Assembly (NCBI GenBank): GCA_002256985.1
Contig: NCGO01000009.1
Span: forward strand, 62,001-126,000
DNA: 64,000 nucleotides
Direction of reading: 5' to 3'
Origin: Novosphingobium sp. 28-62-57
GTDB taxonomy: Bacteria > Pseudomonadota > Alphaproteobacteria > Sphingomonadales > Sphingomonadaceae
The notes beneath the pieces are model-generated. The model was not told the origin of the DNA. It searched no databases and saw only the letters and a program-made list of their open reading frames with translations. The translations under genes were made by a program, and so were the position numbers. Positions 48,629-62,245 of the stretch are shown here, piece by piece; the stretch's first letter is position 1; each line of letters opens with the position of its first letter.

Positions 48629-48876
48629 GAAGGCTCACTTCTTGAATATGCGGTCCGGTCGGTCAGTCCGGCGTAGCATGACACCTATCCCGTGTTTCGT
48701 CCGCTGCCCAGAACGCATGATCGGTTGCGCCGTTCCCCGACTTTGGTCGGGCGATGCGTCATTTGGCGTAGCAATGAAGCCTTGCGCGGTCGCTACGCAC
48801 GTGGCTCAACCAGATTGAGGTGAGGCAGGAGACGCCGAGTGAAACGGACCGCGTTGAAACAGATCGTGCGACGGGG

Positions 48877-50445
48877 ATGATGCAATCCGCTTCGCCCACG
48901 CCGCGCGCACTCCTCGCCTCGGGCGATGTGGCAAAGGCGCTGGCGGCTGCAGGCGAGGCACTGGCGCGCAATCCGTCTGATGCAGACGCTGGATTCGTCG
49001 CGGCCATGGCGCTGGCTGAAACCGGCAGGATCTCCGATGCGGTAAAGGCCATGGGCGCGGTGGTGCGGGCCGTGCCGACCAACCCTGAATATCTTGCCCA
49101 GCACGCGCGTCTGCTGCTCACTGCCCGGCGCGAGGCCGATGCGCTTGGCGCGGCCCGCGCAGCCGTTGCCTGTGATCCTTCCGATCCACTCGTGCTCGAT
49201 ACCATCGGCTGCGTCTTTGCCCGGCTCGGCGCGCATGAAGAGGCGCTGCCGCTGTTCGAACGGGTCGTGCGCGCAAGGCCCGATGTGGTGGATTATCGCT
49301 TCAACCTTGCCAGTACGCTGGGCTTTTTTGGCCGGGTTGAGGATGCCGCTGCACATTATGAAGCGATCCTTGAGCGCGAGCCCGCCCACGGTCGTGCGCA
49401 TCTTGGCCTTGCTGGATTGCGGCGCAAGGCGCGGCCCGATGGGGTTGCCCGGATCGAGTCCCTGCTGGTGACCGTCGCCGATCCGCTGGAGAAAGTGCGC
49501 CTGCACTATGCGGCGGCAGCGGCTTTGGAAGACTTGAAGGATCACGACCGCGCCTTTGACCATCTGGCACAGGGCAATGCCGTCCACCGCGCGCAACTGG
49601 CCTATGATCTGGCCGATGATGTGGCGGTGTTCGATGCCGTGCGGCAGACCTTCGCCGGTGCGCTGCCACTGCGGTCTGACAGCACACTCACCGATGCGCC
49701 GCTGTTTGTGGTGGGCCTGCCGCGCACCGGCACAACGTTGGTGGACCGCATCGTATCGTCGCACCATGCGGTCACCTCAGCCGGAGAGCTGCAGGCCATG
49801 CCATTGGCGGTAAAGCAATTGGCGCAAACGCCATCGCGTCTGGTGCTTGATCCGGCAACCGTCATGGCCACGCAAGGGGAATCGGCGCAAGCGCTGGGCG
49901 AGCTCTATCTGGCCCGCGCAAGGCAGAATGCCGGGGCGCAAAGCCCGCGCTTTACCGACAAGTTCCCGCTGAATTTCCTCTACATCGGTTGGATCATGCA
50001 GGCATTTCCCCATGCCAAAGTGCTGTGCTTGCGGCGCGGGGCGATGGACAGCGTCTGGTCCAACTACAAACACCTGTTTGCCATCGGCTCACCCTACTAT
50101 CGCTGGTCCTATGATCTGATGGACACGGCGCGCTATGTCCTGGAATTCCAGCGCCTGATGTCGTTCTGGCGGCAGCGCTTTCCGGGCCGCGTCCACGAAG
50201 TCACCTATGAATGGCTGGTCGCCGATCAGGAAGCAAACACGCGCAAGATGCTGGCCCATTGCGCGCTTGACTGGGATCCGGCCACACTGGCATTCCAGAA
50301 CAATACCGCCGCCGTTGCCACTCCCAGCGCGCAGCAAGTGCGCGAGCCGATCAATGCGCGCGCGATTGGCCGGTGGCGATCGTATGAAAAGCATCTGGGC
50401 GAGGTGATGGACTTCTTCACCGCCAACGGTATTCCGCTCGATTGA
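48877..50445 (+). CDS. TPR-repeat sulfotransferase
   Basis: A 522-residue protein. The first half has tetratricopeptide repeats (ALLASGDVAKALAAAGEALA and further units of 34 residues), the second half a sulfotransferase domain with the PAPS 5'-phosphosulfate loop VGLPRTGTTLVDRIVSSH and the 3'-phosphate segment CLRRGAMDSVWSNY. Such fused proteins transfer sulfate to peptides or surface glycans, with the repeats holding the partner. An in-frame GTG at 48820 is the longer start; neither has a good ribosome site. A cytosolic soluble protein, no signal seen. Confidence 0.8.
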   Translation: MMQSASPTPRALLASGDVAKALAAAGEALARNPSDADAGFVAAMALAETGRISDAVKAMGAVVRAVPTNPEYLAQHARLLLTARREADALGAARAAVACDPSDPLVLDTIGCVFARLGAHEEALPLFERVVRARPDVVDYRFNLASTLGFFGRVEDAAAHYEAILEREPAHGRAHLGLAGLRRKARPDGVARIESLLVTVADPLEKVRLHYAAAAALEDLKDHDRAFDHLAQGNAVHRAQLAYDLADDVAVFDAVRQTFAGALPLRSDSTLTDAPLFVVGLPRTGTTLVDRIVSSHHAVTSAGELQAMPLAVKQLAQTPSRLVLDPATVMATQGESAQALGELYLARARQNAGAQSPRFTDKFPLNFLYIGWIMQAFPHAKVLCLRRGAMDSVWSNYKHLFAIGSPYYRWSYDLMDTARYVLEFQRLMSFWRQRFPGRVHEVTYEWLVADQEANTRKMLAHCALDWDPATLAFQNNTAAVATPSAQQVREPINARAIGRWRSYEKHLGEVMDFFTANGIPLD

Positions 50446-50528: not shown

Positions 50529-50707
50529 TGGGCATACGTAAATCGGCCCATCCTCGGCAGAGCATTGGGGGCGCACTATCCCCCCATGAGGACGCCATGG
50601 AATATCGCGATGCGTCGCCCAGCCACGTCAGCACCGGCGAGTGGTCAGCCTGTAGCAGGTTTTGTTGCACATGATGCTGCCTGTCCCACAGGTGGGGTAG
50701 CATAACC

Positions 50708-53700
50708 TTGGCACGCGCCGCCTCCGTCCTTCCCGAACGCCGGTCTTATGGGCAATGGGTTGCGGCCCAGACCCGCGACGATCCGGCCTTGCGCTATACC
50801 CCGGAAGACGCGCGCCAGTGGAGCGCGACGACCGTGCTGCAAACGGCGCTGGGCGGCACCGCGTTTCTGGCGTGTGAGGCTGCGGGCGCATCGATAACGC
50901 TGCTCCATGGCGTGCCGGTTGCCATTGCCGCCATCGCCACGGCCTGCTTGCTGATGTTCGTGACCGGCCTGCCGATTGCGATCCACGCGGCGCGGCGCGG
51001 GCTGGATATCGATCTGCTCACGCGCGGAGCGGGCTTCGGCTATCTCGGCTCCACGATCACATCTCTGATCTATGCCGCTTTCACCTTCCTGTTCTTTGCA
51101 GTGGAGGCGGGTATCATGGCCGTGGCGGTGCGCGCGGCGACCGGATTGCCGCTGCCGCTCGGCTATATCGTCTGCGCGCTGGTGGTGATCCCGGTGGCGC
51201 AATATGGCCTGAGCGCGATTTCACGCTTTCAGGTGTGGACACAGCCTGCATGGATCGTGCTGCAATTGCTGCCGGTGGCATACCTGCTGGTGCGGGGCGG
51301 CGATGTGCTTGATGAGTGGGGAGAATTCACCGGGATCTATGCCACCCGCCCGCCGATCATTGCCTTTGGTCTGGCGCTGTCACTGCTGTTGTCGCTGCTG
51401 CCGCGCATCGGCGTGCAGGCAGAATATCTGCGGTTTTTGCCAAAGCCCGAAGTGATCGGCGCGCGCCGGTGGTGGACGGCGGTTGTGCTGGGCGGGCCGG
51501 GCTGGACGCTGATTGGCGGGGCAAAGATGCTGCTTGGGTCAATGCTCGCTGCGTGGGCCGTCTCGTCAGGTGTGTCACCAGTTCTGTCAGAATCGCCCAC
51601 CGGCATGTTCCGCCATGCCTATGAGCCGCTGGTCGGCAGCCCGCGCGCTGCCCTGCTGATGGCCGCTCTGCTGATCGTGGTGTGTCAGACCAAGGCCAAC
51701 GTCACCAATGCCTATGCCGGGTCGGTAGCCTGGTCGAGCTTCTTCTCCCGCCTGACGCAAAGCCATTCGGGCCGGGTGGTGTGGCTGCTGTTCAATGCAG
51801 GCCTCGTGGCCATCATGCTGCTGTTTGGCATCACGCAATCGATGGAAACCGTGCTGCTGTTCTATGCCAGCCTTGCCGCGGGCTGGATCGGGGCGCTTTC
51901 GGCCGATTTGATGATCTCGAAACCGCTTGGCCTGCGCCCGCCAGAGTTGGAATTTCAGCGGGCCTATCTCTACGATATCAACCCGGTGGGTATCGGGGCG
52001 ATGCTGCTGTCGATCACGGCCTCGGCCCTGTGCCAGCTCCACCTGTTCGGCCCTGTGGCACAGGCGCTGGCGCCGCTGATCGGCCTTGGCGTGGCCTTCA
52101 CCGCTGCGCCGCTGATCGCCGCCATCACGCGCGGGCGCTTCTATCTTGCCCGCAAGCGCGAAGCAGAAGGCGGGGAACAGCGCCGGTGCGCCGTGTGCGA
52201 AAGCCACTACCAGCCTGCCGATACCGCGCATTGCCCGCTCTATGCCGGGCCCATCTGCTCGATGTGCTGTTCGCTGGAAACGCGCTGCCACGATATGTGC
52301 AAGCAGGGAAGCCGGGCCACGCAGCAAGTCACCAATCTGGCAGAACGGCTGCTGCCGCGCCGCCTTGCGCGCTATGTCCATACCGCCACCGGGCATTTCA
52401 TTGGCGTGATCGGCGCGTTCACCGTGGCCAATATGGTCGTGATCGGCCTGATCGGGCGGGAATATGCGCGCACGCACCCGGCGCTCACCAGCCATGTCTG
52501 GGCCATCCTGCTCGCGGTGTTCATCGTATTCTTCTTCATGTCCGGCCTTGGCAGCTGGATCATCGTGCTGGCACACCAAAGCCGCCGCGCCGCGCAAGAG
52601 GAAACCCGCCGCCATCTGGCCGAACTGCAACAGGAAATCGCCGCGCACGAAGAAACCGACGCCGCTCTGCAAAAGGCACGCGAAGTGGCCGAAGCCGCCA
52701 ATGCCGCCAAGAGCCGCTATCTCGTCTCGGTCAGCCACGAAATTCGCTCGCCGCTCAATTCGATCTATGGCTATGCCCAGTTGCTCGAACGCGGCAGTGA
52801 TCTGAAACCCGAAGAGGCAGGCAAAGTGATCTGCCGGTCGAGCGAGCACCTGTCGAACCTCGTCGATGGCCTGCTGGATATTGCGCAAGTCGAAGCAGGC
52901 GTGCTGCGCCTTTCGCGCGATACCATTCGCCTGCCCGCCTTTGTTGAGCAGATCGCCAATATGTTCCGCCCGCAGGCCGGGGCCAAGGGCGTAACCTTCA
53001 CGCTCGATGTGCCCAAATCCTTGCCCGAATTCGTGCGCGGCGATCAGAAGCGCTTGCGGCAGGTCTTGATCAACCTGCTGTCCAATGCGATCAAGTTCAC
53101 GCCCTCAGGCTCGGTCACGCTGCGCATCGGTTGGCGCGGGGAAATCGCCACGTTCGAAGTGATCGACACCGGCATCGGCATCGCGCCCGAGGACATGGAC
53201 CGCATCTTCGTGGCATTTGAACGCGGCAGCAGCAAATCCGCTGCAGGGCAGCCGGGCATTGGCCTTGGTCTGGCGATCACGTCCACGCTCGTCCACGTGA
53301 TGGGCGGAGACCTGAGCGTGGAAAGCGAACCGGGGAAGGGCACACGCTTTGCCTTGCGGCTGATGCTGTCGCAGCCGGTGACCCAACCGGTGCAAAGCCA
53401 CCGCGCCGAAGTGATCACCGGCTATCAGGGCAAGCGTCGCACCGTGCTGGTGGCCGATGATGATGCCGCGCAGGCCGCCGTGATCGAAAACCTGCTGCGC
53501 CCGCTGGGGTTCACGGTGATTGGTGCGCGCGATGGCGAAACCGCGATCGTGCTGGCCGCCGCGTCCCGGCCCGATATTGCGCTCCTCGATATCTCGATGC
53601 CGGGCAAGAATGGCTGGGAAACCGCTGCTGCCCTGCGCGCGGCGCACGGTGATGCCTTCCGCATCGTCATGGTCTCGGCCGATGCCCACCAGTTCCGCCG

Positions 53701-54070
53701 GGGTGGTGATGGCCATGATCCGCACGACATGTTTCTGACCAAGCCGATTGAACTTGATAACCTGCTCGACGCCCTGTCCTGGCAGCTCGATCTGACATGG
53801 ACCGTGGCCGATGGGTCACCACGCCGCGCCGCCCCTGCCAATGCAGGGGTCGAATTGCACTTGCCCGCCGCCGCCCTGCCGTTCGTGCCCGAGATCGAAG
53901 GTCTCGCAAGGATCGGCAATGTCAGGGCAATCCAGACCCGCCTGTCCGAACTTGAGGATGCCGTACCTGATGCAGCCCGCTTTGTCGCCCACCTCCGCAC
54001 CTGCCTTGAATGCTTCAATTTCAAGGGGTTACGCGAAGCCCTTCGAAGTGGTGTCGTCCACACCGGATAG
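50708..54070 (+). CDS. NCS1 transporter-hybrid histidine kinase fusion
   Basis: A 1120-residue membrane sensor. Residues 20-480 resemble an NCS1 (purine/cytosine/hydantoin) permease with about 12 helices and an FGYLGSTITSLIYAAFTFLF block. A cysteine cluster follows at 494-531 (CAVC, CPLY, CSMCC, CHDMC), then two more helices (about 565-622), a coiled coil, and a complete kinase core: H677 (SHEIRSP), N793, DTGIGIAP near 820, GIGLGLAI. A receiver domain ends the chain with D961 (LLDISMPG) and K1012 (TKP). It probably senses substrate binding or transport and signals by phosphorelay. The TTG start at 50708 has GGTGGGG upstream. The following regulator overlaps it. Confidence 0.88.
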   Translation: MARAASVLPERRSYGQWVAAQTRDDPALRYTPEDARQWSATTVLQTALGGTAFLACEAAGASITLLHGVPVAIAAIATACLLMFVTGLPIAIHAARRGLDIDLLTRGAGFGYLGSTITSLIYAAFTFLFFAVEAGIMAVAVRAATGLPLPLGYIVCALVVIPVAQYGLSAISRFQVWTQPAWIVLQLLPVAYLLVRGGDVLDEWGEFTGIYATRPPIIAFGLALSLLLSLLPRIGVQAEYLRFLPKPEVIGARRWWTAVVLGGPGWTLIGGAKMLLGSMLAAWAVSSGVSPVLSESPTGMFRHAYEPLVGSPRAALLMAALLIVVCQTKANVTNAYAGSVAWSSFFSRLTQSHSGRVVWLLFNAGLVAIMLLFGITQSMETVLLFYASLAAGWIGALSADLMISKPLGLRPPELEFQRAYLYDINPVGIGAMLLSITASALCQLHLFGPVAQALAPLIGLGVAFTAAPLIAAITRGRFYLARKREAEGGEQRRCAVCESHYQPADTAHCPLYAGPICSMCCSLETRCHDMCKQGSRATQQVTNLAERLLPRRLARYVHTATGHFIGVIGAFTVANMVVIGLIGREYARTHPALTSHVWAILLAVFIVFFFMSGLGSWIIVLAHQSRRAAQEETRRHLAELQQEIAAHEETDAALQKAREVAEAANAAKSRYLVSVSHEIRSPLNSIYGYAQLLERGSDLKPEEAGKVICRSSEHLSNLVDGLLDIAQVEAGVLRLSRDTIRLPAFVEQIANMFRPQAGAKGVTFTLDVPKSLPEFVRGDQKRLRQVLINLLSNAIKFTPSGSVTLRIGWRGEIATFEVIDTGIGIAPEDMDRIFVAFERGSSKSAAGQPGIGLGLAITSTLVHVMGGDLSVESEPGKGTRFALRLMLSQPVTQPVQSHRAEVITGYQGKRRTVLVADDDAAQAAVIENLLRPLGFTVIGARDGETAIVLAAASRPDIALLDISMPGKNGWETAAALRAAHGDAFRIVMVSADAHQFRRGGDGHDPHDMFLTKPIELDNLLDALSWQLDLTWTVADGSPRRAAPANAGVELHLPAAALPFVPEIEGLARIGNVRAIQTRLSELEDAVPDAARFVAHLRTCLECFNFKGLREALRSGVVHTG

Positions 54071-54965
54071 CGAGGTTGTTGGCCGGGACACCGTGCTGGT
54101 GGTGGATGACAACCCGGAATCCTTGCACTTCCTGATCGATACCATCGAACGTGCCGGCATGACCGTGCTGATTGCCACCAATGGCGATGATGCGCTCGAA
54201 CTGCTGGGCCATGTTGCGCCGGATCTGATCCTGATCGATGCGATCATGCCGGGCCTTGATGGCTTTGATACTACCCGCGCAATCAAGAAGCAGCCGCGCC
54301 TTGCCGATATTCCGGTGATCTTCATGACCGGCCTGACCGAGACCGAACATGCCGTGCGCGCGCTTGAGGCAGGCGGGGTTGACTACGTGCGCAAACCGCT
54401 GGCGATCGAGGAATTGCTGGCCCGGATGCGGGTCCACTTGTCGTCCGCGCGGGTCTCACAATCTGGCCGAAGTGCGCTGGATGCCACCGGGCGGCATCTC
54501 CTGGCGGTAACGGCAGAGGGGAACCTGCTGTGGGCCACACCGCAAGTTGAGCATCTGCTGGAACGGTTGGGCAGCAGCGATTGCCTGCCCGAAGCCTTCA
54601 CCGCGCCGCTTGCGCGCCTGCTGGTGCCCGATGAAAACCCCGGAACATCGCTGCGGTTCGAAGCGGGCGGACACACCATCGAACTCGTGCTGGTCGGGTC
54701 AATGCGCAGCGATGAAGTGCTGGTGCGGCTGAATGTCATCCGCGAAGGGGCCGAAGTTGAACTGCTGCGCAATCGCTATGGCCTGACCCAGCGTGAGGCC
54801 GAAGTGCTGCTGTGGATCAGCTATGGCAAGCCCAACCGCGTGATCAGCGAAATTCTCGGCATCAGCCCGCGCACAGTGAATAAGCATCTGGAACAAGTGT
54901 TTGAAAAGCTTGGCGTTGAAACCCGCGCGGCGGCGGCGGCCTTTGCGGTGCGGACGATTACATGA
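54051..54965 (+). CDS. LuxR-type response regulator of the transporter-kinase
   Basis: About 304 residues: receiver domain with VVDDN, phospho-acceptor in LILIDAIMPGLDG and the lysine in YVRKPLA; a middle domain of unknown type (about 115 residues, PAS-like in size); and a LuxR/FixJ helix-turn-helix (LTQREAEVLLWISYGKPNRV, ISPRTVNKHLEQVFEKLGV). A GTG at 54051 inside the kinase gene is taken as start; 54048 is equally possible. The 20-base overlap with the kinase gene makes it the cognate output. Targets are unknown; the acylase just downstream is a candidate. Confidence 0.85.
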   Translation: MSSTPDSEVVGRDTVLVVDDNPESLHFLIDTIERAGMTVLIATNGDDALELLGHVAPDLILIDAIMPGLDGFDTTRAIKKQPRLADIPVIFMTGLTETEHAVRALEAGGVDYVRKPLAIEELLARMRVHLSSARVSQSGRSALDATGRHLLAVTAEGNLLWATPQVEHLLERLGSSDCLPEAFTAPLARLLVPDENPGTSLRFEAGGHTIELVLVGSMRSDEVLVRLNVIREGAEVELLRNRYGLTQREAEVLLWISYGKPNRVISEILGISPRTVNKHLEQVFEKLGVETRAAAAAFAVRTIT

Positions 54966-55017: not shown

Positions 55018-57138
55018 ATGCGAAACACCCTCCTTTGTCACAGCACCCTGCTGTTCGCCCTGCTCGCCACCCCTGCTGCCGCCTCTGCACACAGTCATGA
55101 CGTCACCATCATGCGCGATACGTGGGGCATAGCCCATGTGCAGGGGAAGACCGATGCCGATGCCGTGTTCGGGGCCATCTACGCGCAAGCAGAGGATGAT
55201 TTTCCCCGGGTCGAAGCCAATCTGCTGACTGCGCTGGGCCGCTTGGCCGAGGCGAAGGGTGAGGACGCGGTATGGCAGGACTTGCGCCAGCGTCTGTGGA
55301 TCGATCACGCTGCGCTGAAGCGCGATTATGCCGCATCGCCTGCATGGTTGCGCAAGCTGATGGATGCCTGGGCCGAAGGGCTGAACCACTATCTGGCCAC
55401 CCATCCCGAAGAAAAGCCATTGGTGCTCAAACACTTCGAGCCGTGGATGGCGCTGTCCTTCACCGAAGGCTCAATTGGCGGTGACATTGAATCGGTCGAT
55501 CTTGCCTTGCTGGCCCAATTCCACGGCGGCGCGGCAAGCGCCAAGGCGCTGGCGCTGGCGAAGGTCCGGGATGATGAGCCGCGCGGGTCCAATGGGTTGG
55601 CCATTGCGCCCAAGCTTTCCGCCAGTGGCAATGCACTGCTGCTGATCAACCCGCACACCTCGCTGTTCTTCCGCTCTGAATTGGGCATGGAAAGCAAGGA
55701 GGGCCTGCATGCCTATGGCGCGTCCACATGGGGCCAGTTCTTCATCTATCAGGGCTTCAACGAACACCTTGGCTGGATGCACACCAGCAGCGGTGCGGAC
55801 AATATCGACGAATTTTCAGAAAAGGTCGAAAGACGCGGTGACAAGTGGTTCTATTGGCACGCAAATGTGTGGAAGCCGGTAACCGAAAAAGCGATCACGC
55901 TGCAGGTCCGTCAGCCCGATGGCACGCTGGCCGAGCGTACTTTCACGACCTATTCCACCCACCATGGCCCAGTCGTCCGCACCGAAGGGGACCGGTGGAT
56001 TTCCGTCGCGCTGATGAACACGCCGATTGCCGCGCTCAGCCAATCGTGGTTGCGGACCAAGGCGAAGAGCCAGCAGGACTATCTCAAGGCGCTGGATTTC
56101 AACGCCAATTCGTCGAACAACACGCTCTATGCCGATCGGGATGGCAACATCGCCTTCCTGATGCCCGAATTCGCGCCGCGCCGCTCGGCCAAGTTCGATT
56201 ATCGCGATCCGGTGGATGGCAGCGATCCGGCGGCGGATTGGCAGGGGATCTATGCGCGCAAGGAAACGCCGCATGTGATCAATCCGGCATCGGGCTGGGC
56301 CTATAACGCCAACGATGCACCGTGGCGCGCGGCGGGGGAGGGGACGTTCGATTCCGGACAATGGCCCGCCACTTTTGATACGTTCGGCCCCAATCCGCGC
56401 GGCGATCATATGATGGATTTGCTGGGCAAAGCCAAGGGCTTGACGCTCGAAAGCCTGCATGCGCTGGCCTATGATCCGCACATGCCGCTGTTCGATGATC
56501 TGATCCCCGGGCTTGCCGTCCCGGCGGCAGACGATGCGCTGTCGGGCCCGGTCGCGCTGCTCAAAGGGTGGGATCGGCGCTGGATCGAAGAGTCTGAGGC
56601 GATGAGCCTTGCGCACTATTGGGCCGACGATCTGCAGACGACAGTGCGCGCCAAAATGCCCAAGCATGCCAATGCTTTCGCTGAGATACGCAAGACTTCA
56701 CCTGAAGAACGCGCCGCTGCTCTTCAGCGCGCGACAGCCAAGTTGACGGCGGACTTTGGCACTTGGAAAGTGCCATGGGGGCAGGTCAATCGCTATCAGC
56801 GCGTCACGTCCGATATCGTGCAACCTTTTGCCGACGACAAGCCGAGCTTGCCGGTCGTGTTCGGATCGGCGCGTTGGGGCTCGCTCGCCTCGTTCGGCAC
56901 AAAACAGTATCCGGGGACGAAGCGCTGGTATGGCACCAGTGGGAACAGCTTTGTGGCCGTGGTGGAGTTCGGACCACGCGTGAAGGCCTATGCGGTGTCC
57001 TCTGGCGGGGCCAGCGGGCGTGAAAAATCGCCGCATTTCAATGATCAGGCCGCGCTCTACGCCGCTGGAAAGCTGCGCGAGGTGTACTTTTACCTGAACG
57101 ACACCAAGATGCACCTAGAGCGCACTTACAAGCCCTGA
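55018..57138 (+). CDS. Penicillin acylase-family N-terminal nucleophile hydrolase
   Basis: A 706-residue exported amidase precursor with a signal peptide (LLFALLATPAAASA). The alpha chain region has VTIMRDTWGIAHVQGKTDAD and YAQAEDDFPRVEANL; self-cleavage would expose S191 in RGSNGLAIAPK, the nucleophile of the beta chain, followed by LLLINPHTSLFFR. Members hydrolyse penicillins, cyclic lipopeptides or acyl-homoserine lactones; substrate cannot be told. Starts 52 bases after the response regulator, same strand, so it could be part of that transcript. It converges on and overlaps mocA by 13 bases. Confidence 0.88.
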   Translation: MRNTLLCHSTLLFALLATPAAASAHSHDVTIMRDTWGIAHVQGKTDADAVFGAIYAQAEDDFPRVEANLLTALGRLAEAKGEDAVWQDLRQRLWIDHAALKRDYAASPAWLRKLMDAWAEGLNHYLATHPEEKPLVLKHFEPWMALSFTEGSIGGDIESVDLALLAQFHGGAASAKALALAKVRDDEPRGSNGLAIAPKLSASGNALLLINPHTSLFFRSELGMESKEGLHAYGASTWGQFFIYQGFNEHLGWMHTSSGADNIDEFSEKVERRGDKWFYWHANVWKPVTEKAITLQVRQPDGTLAERTFTTYSTHHGPVVRTEGDRWISVALMNTPIAALSQSWLRTKAKSQQDYLKALDFNANSSNNTLYADRDGNIAFLMPEFAPRRSAKFDYRDPVDGSDPAADWQGIYARKETPHVINPASGWAYNANDAPWRAAGEGTFDSGQWPATFDTFGPNPRGDHMMDLLGKAKGLTLESLHALAYDPHMPLFDDLIPGLAVPAADDALSGPVALLKGWDRRWIEESEAMSLAHYWADDLQTTVRAKMPKHANAFAEIRKTSPEERAAALQRATAKLTADFGTWKVPWGQVNRYQRVTSDIVQPFADDKPSLPVVFGSARWGSLASFGTKQYPGTKRWYGTSGNSFVAVVEFGPRVKAYAVSSGGASGREKSPHFNDQAALYAAGKLREVYFYLNDTKMHLERTYKP

Positions 57139-57686
57139 AGTTGCTCTTTCGCGCTCTGCAAGTCGTCTGGCGTGTCAATATCGAGCGCGAGGTGTGCGGG
57201 CAGATCAACCCATGGGGCATCGGCCAGCAATTCCCCGCCGCCCCGGTCTCCGACCAGCGCGGCAAGCGCCGGGAAATGCTGCTTGCCAAAGATCGCAGGC
57301 ACCATGTTGCGCCCGTCAACTTGCGTGGCGATCCTGTCGCCATCGAACCGTGCGACCAGCTCGGCAAAGTGCGCCGCCGGCACAAGCGGCATGTCAGCCA
57401 GCGCGAACAGCGCCGCATCAACATCGCCCAGCGCGGCAACGGCAGCAGCAATCGAGTGTGAAAGCGGGGCTTCTGGCGGATCGAGCAGCAGCCGGGAAAA
57501 TCCCGGAAGATCAGGCGTCTGCGTGGAGCAGACAGCGATGCGTTGAACGTGCGGCAGAGTGCTGAGGCTGTCTGCCGCATGGCGCGCCAGCGGCTTTCCG
57601 GCCAGCGTCGTGCCCAATTTGCCGCCGCCAAAGCGGGTGGCCCGCCCTGCGGCGAGCAGGATGATCGCGATGCGGGGGGTGGTCAC
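57126..57686 (-). CDS. mocA: Molybdenum cofactor cytidylyltransferase (MocA-like)
   Basis: A 186-residue nucleotidyltransferase with the signature LLAAGRATRFGGGKLGTTLA, DMPLV near residue 99 and NMVPAIFG. It attaches CMP to molybdopterin-Mo to give the MCD form used by xanthine-oxidase-type enzymes. The operon with XdhC and the two hydroxylase subunits supports this over MobA (GMP). It is the last gene, overlapping xdhC by 4 bases. Confidence 0.85.
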   Translation of the reverse strand: MTTPRIAIILLAAGRATRFGGGKLGTTLAGKPLARHAADSLSTLPHVQRIAVCSTQTPDLPGFSRLLLDPPEAPLSHSIAAAVAALGDVDAALFALADMPLVPAAHFAELVARFDGDRIATQVDGRNMVPAIFGKQHFPALAALVGDRGGGELLADAPWVDLPAHLALDIDTPDDLQSAKEQLQGL

Positions 57687-58660
57687 CGCAAGTTTGCGGC
57701 GGTGAGGGGCTGGCCTGTCCAGTAGGAGAAGTTGGCCAAAGCATTGTATTCCGTAACGATTTCCCCAAGGATTGAGAGTGCCAGCGTGGCCGGATCGCGT
57801 GTTGCCGGGATCAGGCCGATATGTCCGCGCAGACTTCCGATCACGCGCTCATCCATTCCTGCAGCGCGCAGTGCCGCAAGCCGTGCCGCGTGGGTGCGGC
57901 GGCTGCCTATGGCGCCATGATAGAAGGCAGGCAGGGCAAGCGCTTGCGGCAGAAGGAATTCCTCCCAATCGCGCCCATGAAACAGGAACACAATGGCCGT
58001 CCACGGATCGGTTGCAAGCTGTGGTAGCGCCTTGCGCGTGGGCAAGGCGATGGCAGCAATGCCCGATTGCTCCAGCAGTTGCTGCGTCCCGCCATCGGGC
58101 GTCAGCGCGGTAACCTGTGTGCCGAAAGCTTTGGAAAGCTGGCAAAAAGCGGTGAGGTCCTCCCCCTGGCCGAGCGCGATTACCCGCAGTGGCGGCTGAT
58201 AGACCAGCGTTACATCGCGGCCATCCCAGCTTTTCTGCACCATCGCATCGGCCAGCGTCACCCGATCACAGTCGAGCCGCAGCGCCGCCGCCTCCCGCTT
58301 GTCGAGCAAGTCCAAAGCGGCGATGATGGCTTCGGGCGATGGGCGCGGGGTGAACAGCAAGTCGATCCCGCCGCCACAGGGCAGGCGGATATCGATATAG
58401 GGCGAGCCGATGCCGTACCGCACCACGTGGCCCCAGCCATCGGCCAGCGTTTCGAGCGCTTCGGTGGCGACGGCATCTTCGACACAGCCCCCCGAAAGCG
58501 ATCCGGTCCGCCGTCCATCAGCCGCAACGGCCATCTGCGTGCCGACGCTGCGCGATGCGCCGCCTTCGATCCCGACCAGCGTTACCAGCACGCACTCCAC
58601 CCCCTCTGCCGCACGCGCGGCAAGGAAGCGGAGGATATCGAGGGGTGTCGCAGCGACCAT
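57683..58660 (-). CDS. xdhC: XdhC-family molybdenum hydroxylase maturation protein
   Basis: A 325-residue XdhC/CoxI-type chaperone. The N-terminal domain has GGASRSVGTQMAVAADGRRT and GSLSGGCVEDAV, the C-terminal Rossmann domain AFYHGAIGSRRTHAARLAAL and RVIGSLRGHIGLIPATRDPA. It protects the cofactor and helps sulfuration and insertion into the large subunit. The gene starts 10 bases after the Mo subunit and overlaps mocA. Confidence 0.9.
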   Translation of the reverse strand: MVAATPLDILRFLAARAAEGVECVLVTLVGIEGGASRSVGTQMAVAADGRRTGSLSGGCVEDAVATEALETLADGWGHVVRYGIGSPYIDIRLPCGGGIDLLFTPRPSPEAIIAALDLLDKREAAALRLDCDRVTLADAMVQKSWDGRDVTLVYQPPLRVIALGQGEDLTAFCQLSKAFGTQVTALTPDGGTQQLLEQSGIAAIALPTRKALPQLATDPWTAIVFLFHGRDWEEFLLPQALALPAFYHGAIGSRRTHAARLAALRAAGMDERVIGSLRGHIGLIPATRDPATLALSILGEIVTEYNALANFSYWTGQPLTAANLR

Positions 58661-58670
58661 CAGGTGCGCG

Positions 58671-60833
58671 CTATACCATCTCCAAGGGCAGACGGCGATG
58701 CCGTTTACCGGTCAGCGAGTAGATTGCATTGGCCAACGCTGGAATGACCGGGGGCAGGGCCGGTTCACCAAGGCCGGTGGGCGGAAAATCGGTCTTTACG
58801 AACTCCACCGCAATCTCGCGCGGGGCCGCATCGATCCGCATCAGCGCAAAATCGCCAAAGTTTTCAGCGGTAATCGCGCCTGCTTCCTGCACGATCTTCT
58901 GGCCGATCATGGCCTGGCCCAGTCCTTCGATAACACAGCCATGCGCCTGATTGAGCGCATTGAGCGGGTTGATGATATGCGCGCCGATGTCGCCCGCCAC
59001 CCACACTTTGTCCACTTTCACCGCGCCTCCGGCCATCGAGATATCGACGACTTCGGCGAAGTATCCCAAGTGGCTGAAGTAGAACCCGAAACCGCGCCCC
59101 TTTTCGCGGCCCTTCCAGCCTGCGGATTTGCATACCGCATCAATCACACCGCGCGCCCGGCCGGTGTTAAACTTGGCTCGCTCGCCCGGAAGCTCGCGCG
59201 CTTCGCCCAGCGTGCGGCGCATCAGTTCGGGCAAGTCCAGCCCGGCAGCTTCGGCCACTTCATCGAGGAACGACTGAAACACAAAGGCCATCGCGTTTGA
59301 CGAAGGCGCGCGCAGCCAGCCGGTGGCCAGATTGGTGGCCATGTAGGTGACGCCCAGGTCAACGTTTGGAACGACTGGCGCCGGATATTCGCCCGGGGCC
59401 ATTTGCGCGGCGCGGATCGGCTTGCCATCGGTGCCGAAGGTGGCGAAGTGGTCCTTGAACGCGACCAGCCCGCCATCGGCGCCAAGGCCTGCGGTCAGCC
59501 GGTGCCAGCCTGCGGGGCGATAGAAATCGTTGCGGAAATCATCCGTGCGGTCGAACAGGACCTTCACCGGCTTGCCCGGCATCGCTTTTGCCACCTGGCC
59601 TGCGATCACCATGTAATCGTTGAGCAAGCGCCGCCCGAACCCGCCCCCGATGCGGGTGAGGTGGATCGTCAAGTCGTCGGGCGTGAGGCCGCAGAACTTG
59701 GCGGTTTCGTTGCGGCCATTGGCAGGCGACTGGCTTGGCGCCCAAAGCTCCAGCTTGCCATCCTTGAACAGCCCGGTGCAGTTTTGCGGCTCTAGCGAGG
59801 CGTGGGCGAGGAACGGATACTCATAGTCTGCCGTGATCACCTTGGCCGCATTGGCCAGAGCGGCATCGGGATCGCCCGCCTTGAACACGCTGGTCTGCGG
59901 AGTTCCGGCCACGATCTTGGCAGCATCGGCTTCATACTTGGCGGTGGAGAAGCCGGTGACTGCGGCATCGTCCCACTTCACCGCCAGCTTTTCGCGCGCT
60001 TTGCTGGCCTTCCACCAGCTGTCGGCCACGATCACCAGCGTATCGTTCTTGCCCTCGGGCACAAAGCCGCTGTTGACCGCCACGACGCCCATCACGCCGG
60101 GGATGGCCTTGACCGCCGCATCATCGAACGAGGCCACCGTGCCGCCGTGCGCCGGGCATTTGACGACCGCGCCGTGGGCCATACCGGCCACGCGCGTATC
60201 GATGCCGAACAGCGGTTCCCCCTTGACGATTTTCGGAACATCCACGCCGGGTTTGGACGTGCCGATGATCTTGAAGGCAGCAGGCTCTTTCAGCGTGACC
60301 TTGGCCAGATCGGGCGGAGTCTGCGTTGCGGCAACTTTCGCCAGCGAGGCGTAAGTGGCGCTTTTGCCAGACGATGCCTGAAGTACGGCGCCGTTTGCAG
60401 TGGAAAGTGTGGCAGCATCAACGCCCCAGGTCTTTGCCGCGGCCATGACCAGCATTTCGCGCGCAGCCGCGCCGACTTGCCGCATCGGCAGCCAGTTGCG
60501 CGGCGTGGCGGTGCTGCCACCGGCCACTTGCGGGCCATAGCGCTTTTCATCGGCATCGGTCTGTTCGATGCGGACCTGTTCCCACGCGAGGTCCATTTCC
60601 TCGGCGATCAGCATCGGCAGCATGACCTTTACGCCCTGACCGATCTCGGGATTCTTGGCGCCGATCGTCACGGTGTTGTCGGCATTGATGCGCACGAAGG
60701 CGTTCAGCACGTCTGCAGGGGCCGTGCTGGACACAGCAGACAGCACGACCGACGCATCGAGCGTCAGCACCGCGCCGCCTGCCACCGAGGCGACGAGGAA
60801 TGAGCGGCGCGAAACAGAGACAGTCCCGGTCAT
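58671..60833 (-). CDS. Molybdenum hydroxylase large subunit (IorB-like)
   Basis: A 720-residue xanthine-oxidase-family subunit of the isoquinoline 1-oxidoreductase/aldehyde dehydrogenase type, with a twin-arginine signal ([20 protein letters not shown]). Cofactor segments are visible: [60 protein letters not shown], and a final [20 protein letters not shown] with the active-site glutamate. It hydroxylates an aldehyde or N-heterocycle in the periplasm. The ATG overlaps the stop of the 2Fe-2S subunit. The substrate cannot be read from sequence. Confidence 0.9.
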
Positions 60834-61564: not shown

Positions 61565-62245
61565 ATGCCCGCACAACTGGACCTTGCTGATACCGAACTG
61601 CCGTCTGCTCCGCGTCCGGGGACATATGCGCGCGGTACGGAAACTGTCGATGCGATCATTCAGGCCGCGCTGCGGGTGCTGATCGACGAGGGATCGGGCG
61701 CTTTCACGATCCGCCGGATCGCGACCGAATGCGGGATGAAAGTTGGCAATGTCAGCTACCATTTCCCCAAGAAGGAACTGCTCGTCCAGACCCTGCTGGA
61801 CGATATCATCAGCAGTTACGACAAGCTGCTGGAGCGCACCGTGCGCCAGCCCGGCCTTGATGCCGAGGAGCGTTTGCGCCTGATCGTCGTGCTATGTCTG
61901 GATGATATTGCGGGCAAGCGCACCACGCGGCTCTTTCCCGAGCTTTGGGCCTTGGCCAATCACAACGAGTTCGTGGCCGACCGGGTGCGGGTGTTCTATC
62001 AGCGCGTGCACGATTTCATTGCGGAATATGTGGGCCAGCTCAATCCGGTGCTTAATCATCAGCAAGTGCGCGATGTAGCCTTGTTTATCAGTGCATCGAT
62101 GGAAGGTGCGACCCCGTTTCTCGGCTATGAAAAGCCATGGGCAGACCGGATGTCGGCCTTTACCGCGATTGCTGCGCACAGTCTGGTGCATCTTGCCAAG
62201 ACGATCACGCCGGCGCAGATTGCAGGCGTTGCCAACCGGGCTTGA
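61565..62245 (+). CDS. TetR-family transcription regulator
   Basis: A 226-residue regulator with an N-terminal TetR helix-turn-helix (AFTIRRIATECGMKVGNVSY, HFPKKELLVQTLLDDI) and an all-helical ligand domain. Divergent from the molybdenum hydroxylase operon (about 200 bases apart) and followed by amine dehydrogenase genes, so it may control either. The ATG at 61565 is preferred to a GTG at 61511 whose extra residues look like noncoding sequence. Confidence 0.8.
   Translation: MPAQLDLADTELPSAPRPGTYARGTETVDAIIQAALRVLIDEGSGAFTIRRIATECGMKVGNVSYHFPKKELLVQTLLDDIISSYDKLLERTVRQPGLDAEERLRLIVVLCLDDIAGKRTTRLFPELWALANHNEFVADRVRVFYQRVHDFIAEYVGQLNPVLNHQQVRDVALFISASMEGATPFLGYEKPWADRMSAFTAIAAHSLVHLAKTITPAQIAGVANRA

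Follow-up and report, generated by a model that had tools for sequence, protein, structure and literature searches.

A permease–histidine kinase fusion in Novosphingobium: a putative urea or short-amide sensor family with a possibly rewired member

In the UhpC/UhpT-type pair a transporter-like sensor stands beside a homologous transporter, and UhpC is a separate MFS protein. In CrbS/CrbR and CbrA/CbrB, as described in parts of PMC5715377 and PMC7918813, an SLC5/SSS transporter domain is fused to a histidine kinase (a hybrid one in CrbS), and CrbR is a LuxR-type partner with an inverted-repeat operator and a role in nutrient control. Here we describe a locus of Novosphingobium sp. 28-62-57 in which an NCS1-like permease is fused to a hybrid histidine kinase and followed by a LuxR-type regulator. 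It lies in a 64,000-nucleotide stretch (positions 62,001 to 126,000 of contig NCGO01000009.1), which we call the window. We consider it probable that the fusion belongs to a family of permease-derived sensor kinases for urea or short amides, working with a LuxR regulator and a palindromic operator, and that the window's copy has been rewired.

The family resembles the CrbR system in its LuxR-type partner, its predicted inverted-repeat operator and its presumed place in nutrient control. It differs from CrbS and CbrA in that the transporter part is of the NCS1 and not the SSS type (the window's permease part has no PF00474 match at E ≤ 10), in what appear to be a cysteine module and two transmembrane (TM) segments at the place where STAC and PAS are found in the CrbS and CbrA described in those parts, and in a gene context of urea and amides rather than acetate or histidine. 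Its palindrome does not resemble the ACTU sequences that PMC5715377 quotes for CrbR. A search of the open-licensed PMC literature found no description of an NCS1 permease fused to a kinase, which does not prove that none exists. PMC13296017 describes urtABCDE in an Ectopseudomonas operon together with genes for a hybrid kinase and a LuxR protein and, in the available part, no permease; PMC6368324 lists a membrane hybrid kinase near allophanate hydrolase in Pseudomonas pseudoalcaligenes; in PMC8399564 NCS1 appears nowhere but in a reference, as part of the title of a thesis on transporters and kinases; the available part of PMC7918813 does not mention NCS1; and PMC6066579 is unrelated.

The fused sensor and its regulator

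A sequence-only reading of the window had described one chain running from a permease through about eight cysteines and two helices to a complete histidine kinase and a receiver, and each of these parts was recovered. The gene starts with TTG and codes for 1120 residues without an internal stop. Pfam places HisKA at residues 668-731, HATPase_c at 778-887 (E 1.6e-28) and a receiver at 913-1023. According to family-mean hydropathy, the permease helices are followed by the hydrophilic cysteine stretch, by two further hydrophobic segments (565-582 and 599-620) and by the kinase. Between residues 484 and 667 of the window's fusion nothing exceeds the Pfam cut-off, the presence of a STAC model in the library not having been checked. 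Could the joining of permease and kinase be a sequencing error? Every one of the 20 class-level genomes with the fusion has it as a single long frame, and so do 20 of 21 congeners; in the exception, G417 (locus L214), which also has urtA, an assembly error or a true break has left two overlapping frames. We therefore rule a sequencing error out.

The NCS1 similarity of the N-terminal half, likewise proposed from the letters, is not visible to Pfam. The first ~490 residues of the window's fusion have no match, PF02133 included, and for 51 family members PF02133 is not among the 25 Pfam families listed out of 35 matched. The cytosine-permease model NF008241 matches residues 29-192 (E 8.4e-7, far under the model's cut-off). 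Using hhalign, a profile of the 51 sequences aligned with 28 genuine NCS1 permeases (L158 and L164 excluded) at 99.2% and E 1.4e-19 over 412 columns, corresponding to window residues 22-470, while the controls (UrtB, UrtC and three column-shuffled NCS1 alignments) all stayed below 1%; an SSF search intended as a further control yielded a single locus and did not enter the comparison. Because of this difference we place the family on a distant branch of NCS1, and regard the homology as distant but clear. A PDB sequence search with the permease part gave no match, and a profile search gave only four weak ones (E 1.1-9.9), none of them a permease; of the NCS1 relatives used as PDB queries, one matched Mhp1 and another matched nothing.

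The hydantoin permease Mhp1 (PDB 2jln, 4d1a) belongs to the same family by profile, is 17% identical and lacks the fused kinase. The residues F129, E133 and N334 align with Mhp1 Trp117, Gln121 and Asn318 (alignment confidence 9), which bind hydantoin according to a part of PMC4195764. Asn318 is conserved as N334, Glu133 is invariant at the position of Gln121, and both Glu133 and Phe129 are conservative changes. A glutamate and an asparagine in this predicted pocket would suit a small amide. At the positions of Mhp1 Ser312 and Thr313, which hold sodium according to a part of PMC3812048, the family has Lys329 and Ile330 (Ala in the window, Ala or Val in most members of the sub-clade described below), so that the Na2 sodium site is not matched. 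Outside that sub-clade the lysine is invariant; within it, three of the nine members have an arginine instead. A lysine at this site suggests operation independent of sodium.

There are exactly eight cysteines in the module, at positions 494, 497, 509, 517, 520, 521, 527 and 531. All of them, together with D505, D529 and K532, are invariant in the 83 rows of an alignment of the window's protein and 82 relatives, from which L001-L005 (duplicates) and L026 and L063 (broken frames) were left out. The order of hydropathy and the usual NCS1 topology place the stretch on the cytosolic side, as had been suggested. Among eight stand-alone permeases without a kinase, a homologous CxxC...CxxC stretch is present in four, degenerate in three and complete, with all eight cysteines, in one from Methylovirgula. 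Since stand-alone permeases already hold part or, once, all of the module, we take it to be the permease's own, and it seems to have arrived together with the permease. CRIPT matches the family weakly (Pfam E 0.0011 in one of 51 members, at a position that was not located; E 1.6 for profile stretch 493-526 against CRIPT in PDB 7dvq).

The two residues named as possible phosphorylation sites are conserved, H677 in 83 of 83 rows and D961 in 81, the other two having gaps. A phosphotransfer (HPt) domain had also been considered for the last 100 residues, and this was not borne out: in residues 1030-1120 the best histidine column is filled in only 24 of 83 rows, and the tail is missing from five complete relatives (in three more it is cut by a contig end). 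Only W6 and G45 are invariant among 54 tails. Phosphate might pass from H677 to the regulator directly or via a separate HPt protein. The regulator's frame has GTG codons at 54048 and 54051, and a start at 54051 gives the 20-base overlap with the kinase gene that had been noted. As expected of a dedicated partner, a LuxR regulator adjoins the fusion in 70 of 74 relatives having at least 1.2 kb downstream; by the criterion used none was found in L026, L081, L086 and L087. Among 94 regulators, 83-94 agree at most positions of the recognition helix, SPRTVNKHLEQ, and 68 at its N.

Gene neighbourhood and a shared palindrome

A scan of genome contigs with the permease part found at least 588 relatives, of which the best 80 were kept as contig loci for counting and checked for the fusion; the frame is broken in two of them (L026 and L063). 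Among plasmid records there were 528 matches; 506 span 80% or more of the query, and 342 are from Klebsiella. Where members are annotated, the commonest name is 'ATP-binding protein'. The fusion occurs in 20 of 241 genomes of an even class sample, while 195 congeners contain 21 full fusions (one split, in G417) and seven kinases without a permease.

The neighbours of the fusion point to urea and short amides. Genes of the urt, ure or fmd groups occur at 69 of the 80 contig loci; among the 65 loci with at least 5 kb on both sides the count is 62. At 39 of the 80, a divergent urtA lies no more than 1.5 kb away. In the class sample urtA exceeds its curated cut-off in 19 of 20 fusion genomes vs 41 of 221 others (p 4.7e-12), urease is found in 17 of 20 vs 58 of 221, and urtA above cut-off lies within 10 kb of the fusion in 15 of 20. 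Because related genomes are not independent, such p-values are only indicative. In the genus, all 11 genomes with urtA among the 195 carry the fusion (one split). Thirteen plasmid loci were read, of which two are without annotation, and urea or amide genes stand beside the fusion at 10 of the remaining 11. These combine urtABCDE with formamidase (Klebsiella), with urease (Methylosinus, Sphingobium, Methylovirgula) or with neither (Rhizobium, Sinorhizobium); three further loci have urt genes and formamidase or amidase, and a second Methylovirgula locus has formamidase and amidase without urt. Two loci read on Klebsiella plasmids (e.g. L093) hold the sensor beside urt-like and formamidase genes, in one also amidase genes.

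The eight stand-alone cousins, all from plasmid records, have a similar context. Six adjoin urea or amide genes: urease in two, formamidase (near) in two and aliphatic amidase in two. One Methylovirgula locus unites formamidase, fused sensor, regulator, stand-alone permease and amidase; such a fused and a free permease at one locus recall the UhpC/UhpT arrangement, except that the sensor, unlike UhpC, is fused to its kinase. By match positions, an unannotated stretch of NZ_CP104448.1 (Acinetobacter baumannii, 3582511-3586239) also has a stand-alone permease adjacent to a fused one on the opposite strand. In a urease cluster of Klebsiella, the gene immediately after ureG codes for a stand-alone permease of this branch, annotated as cytosine permease (L216, 6971-8578), which is a candidate urea or amide permease.

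Many promoters of urtA, ureD and the kinase share the palindrome ATACGTCAAATGACGTAT. It was derived from 34 of the 39 divergent urtA-fusion intergenic regions, namely those of 60-900 bases (five shorter or longer ones were excluded). The dyad CGTCA-nn-TGACG occurs in 12 of these 34 regions, whereas no dyad occurs in more than two in 20 shuffled sets. The longer form TACGTCAnnTGACGTA, allowing three mismatches, is found in 22 of 34 regions vs 0.8% of shuffled regions. A scoring matrix built from those 22 sites was then applied, at a threshold of 16, to 58 loci not used for its construction. Of the 32 sites found, 26 lie ahead of the starts of urt, ure, fmd or fusion genes, in zones that make up 13.8% of the held-out sequence (enrichment p 1.8e-17); the nearest gene is urtA in 11, the fusion in 10 and ureD in five.

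The Novosphingobium sub-clade and competing explanations

The window's copy belongs to a sub-clade of nine genomes plus G003, whose copy is truncated, with a support of 100/100 on the kinase tree (L019, without an H-box pattern match, was left out of the tree). Its own genome, rated 100% complete, yielded no urtA, no urease and no FmdA_AmdA match, urea carboxylase and allophanate hydrolase not having been searched; six CN_hydrolase matches are too general to interpret. None of the nine genomes has urtA above cut-off, G018 being just 80% complete. The permease has changed at positions that are otherwise fixed: D239, I330, P354 and M371 are identical in all 98 other rows and altered in 8, 8, 9 and 9 of the nine members, respectively. 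The 98 rows comprise 90 fused proteins (near-copies included) and eight stand-alone ones, with G417 left out and L008-L011 replaced by the congener loci of the same genomes. The window and G018 also share E236V. None of the nine has lost any of the eight cysteines, E133 or N334. Six pairs chosen within the sub-clade have permease/kinase dN ratios of 2.2-10, as against 0.65-0.97 for three pairs of the urea type; permease dN/dS in the sub-clade pairs is 0.07-0.22. G346 was counted among the genomes without urtA, but was grouped with the urea-type rows in the residue and rate comparisons because its residues and tree position are of that type.

The predicted operator has been retained next to different genes. 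The window has two sites scoring at least 12 (Table 1), where 0.17 would be expected, and the remaining 137 kb of the contig has one, at 12.7. The stronger ends 48 bases before the longest frame of a gene for a TPR-sulfotransferase, a protein encoded beside the system in all nine members, each with a site of at least 10 before it; none of the sub-clade sites belonged to the training set. A divergent TonB receptor gene is present at eight of the nine loci, and the region between it and the fusion has a site of at least 18.9 in seven of the eight (11.8 in G018). Seven congeners on two branches have kinase and regulator without permease part or cysteine module: G003 (L012) within the sub-clade, and G319, G343, G355, G372, G411 and G458 (L206-L211) next to the urea-type G014. 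In five of these last six an operator of score 24.6 precedes the kinase (in G411 within a 5' extension of the called frame); the scores are 12.6 in G458 and 15.6 in G003.

We propose that urea or a short amide such as formamide or acetamide would occupy the NCS1-like pocket, with E133 and N334 as predicted contacts, and that the conformational change may travel via the cytosolic cysteine module and the two TM segments to the kinase. The phosphorylated LuxR-type regulator would then bind ATACGTCAAATGACGTAT and switch on urtABCDE, the urease or formamidase genes and its own operon. The fusion lends support to the suggestion that the transporter itself is the sensor. The window's copy would descend from such a urea-type system, its DNA-binding end and operator kept and its permease changed; in the sub-clade the predicted operator now stands before the TPR-sulfotransferase gene and, in 8/9, between kinase and TonB-dependent receptor. 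In view of the kept regulator and operator, the changed permease and the new neighbours, the copy most likely responds to another small polar molecule and governs how it is acquired. The observations are explained most economically by a change in the specificity of the sensor and in the target genes, with regulator and operator retained. What the sequences show is the architecture, the homology, the gene context, the conservation, the common palindrome, the altered residues and the rates; ligand, signal path, metal binding, phosphotransfer, DNA binding and regulon are inferred from these. Evenly balanced, in our judgement, is the more specific proposal of a two-component system caught in mid-rewiring: a sensor derived from a urea permease, in genomes without urtA, altered at positions fixed even in actinobacterial transporters, whose regulator and operator would now command an outer-membrane receptor and the TPR-sulfotransferase, and whose permease part is absent on two other branches of the genus where kinase, regulator and operator remain.

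Does the permease part sense at all? It might be a working transporter, with the cysteine module as the true sensor of zinc or redox state and the urea genes merely co-regulated. The invariance of the eight cysteines in 83/83 rows, their retention in 9/9 sub-clade members despite the change of the permease, and the weak CRIPT matches would fit this view. However, permeases without a kinase hold part of the module (degenerate in 3/8), so that it looks permease-derived, and the gene context is one of urea and amides, not of metals or redox; we regard this explanation as improbable. Even less credible, and in our view very improbable, is a family that senses nucleobases, hydantoins or allantoin, the ligand type first suggested. 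The NCS1 homology points that way, as do the annotations of the stand-alone cousins (allantoin permease in three of eight, cytosine permease in one), xanthine-dehydrogenase-family genes near the fusion of Azospirillum lipoferum, and, close to the fusion in the window, genes for XdhC and a molybdopterin-binding oxidoreductase. Yet urt, ure, formamidase or amidase genes stand beside 10 of 11 annotated fusion loci and six of eight stand-alone cousins, and neighbours and cousins alike indicate urea and short amides.

The window's system could also be what is left of a urea sensor in decay, with no function today. The lack of any urtA or urease hit in its genome, the relatively faster evolution of the permease than in urea-type pairs and the seven congeners that have only kinase and regulator would agree with decay. 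But dN/dS between G000 and G018 is 0.083 for the permease and 0.038 for the kinase-receiver part, the eight cysteines, E133 and N334 are intact in every sub-clade member, and so is the operator before the neighbouring gene. A relic therefore seems unlikely to us.

Several observations weigh against the urea-sensor reading and the rewiring we favour. The operator is not universal, since 34 of the 58 held-out loci, including all 17 from Bradyrhizobium, have no such site before these genes, and two of the nine TPR-sulfotransferase sites score just 10.2 and 13.7. Our sampling favours relatives most like the window's copy. Urea or amide genes are missing near the fusion at L019, L060 and L076, where both flanks reach 5 kb, and at the A. 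lipoferum locus, while two stand-alone cousins show no urease, formamidase or amidase within the stretch read; the urea/amide context could also mirror nitrogen control instead of urea sensing. Alignment of TM6 to Mhp1, which takes in residues 233-237 and, on the Mhp1 side, Gly219/Trp220, is unreliable (confidence 2-3). Urease was not found in G000 and G018, the only two of the nine sub-clade genomes checked, and G346 combines urea-type residues with the lack of urtA. The TonB receptor is absent from the window's own locus, the only place in that genome where it was searched, and the fusion of G350, which is of the urea type, likewise has weak paralogues of the TPR-sulfotransferase (30%) and of the TonB receptor (27%) nearby. 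Finally, the rewiring is in essence a single event in a single clade.

If the favoured reading is correct, a large sensor family (at least 588 contig stretches and 528 plasmid records) would gain a function, a ligand class and an operator, and NCS1 would be a further transporter fold that serves as the input of a kinase. The permease on its own, the fused sensor, its altered form and the kinase without a permease would make up a natural series on the change from transporter to receptor and on the retargeting of a regulator.

Features and neighbours of the locus

The features of the locus are collected in Table 1. The penicillin-amidase-family gene lies downstream near the system in six of the nine sub-clade members, and is possibly a member of the operon.

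Table 1. Positions of the described features in the window
Feature	Position	Strand	Remarks
Predicted operator, best in the 201-kb contig	48754..48771	.	Score 23.9; upstream of TPR-sulfotransferase gene
TPR-sulfotransferase (Sulfotransfer_3), predicted target	48820..50445	+	ATG at 48877 is the likelier start
Predicted operator, weak copy	50534..50551	.	Score 13.4; upstream of kinase gene
Fused sensor	50708..54070	+	NCS1-like permease ~22-470, eight-cysteine module 494-531, two TM, HisKA, HATPase_c, receiver, short helical tail
Response regulator, receiver and LuxR-type HTH	54051..54965	+	GTG start at 54048 or 54051
Penicillin-amidase-family enzyme	55018..57138	+	~52 bp after regulator (start inferred)

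After the locus, genes for a MobA-like protein, XdhC and a molybdopterin-binding oxidoreductase occupy positions 57126-60833 on the minus strand, and are syntenic in most sub-clade members. A low-affinity iron permease gene (PF04120; 48218-48628, minus strand) is divergent from the TPR-sulfotransferase gene and shares with it the intergenic region that holds the operator.

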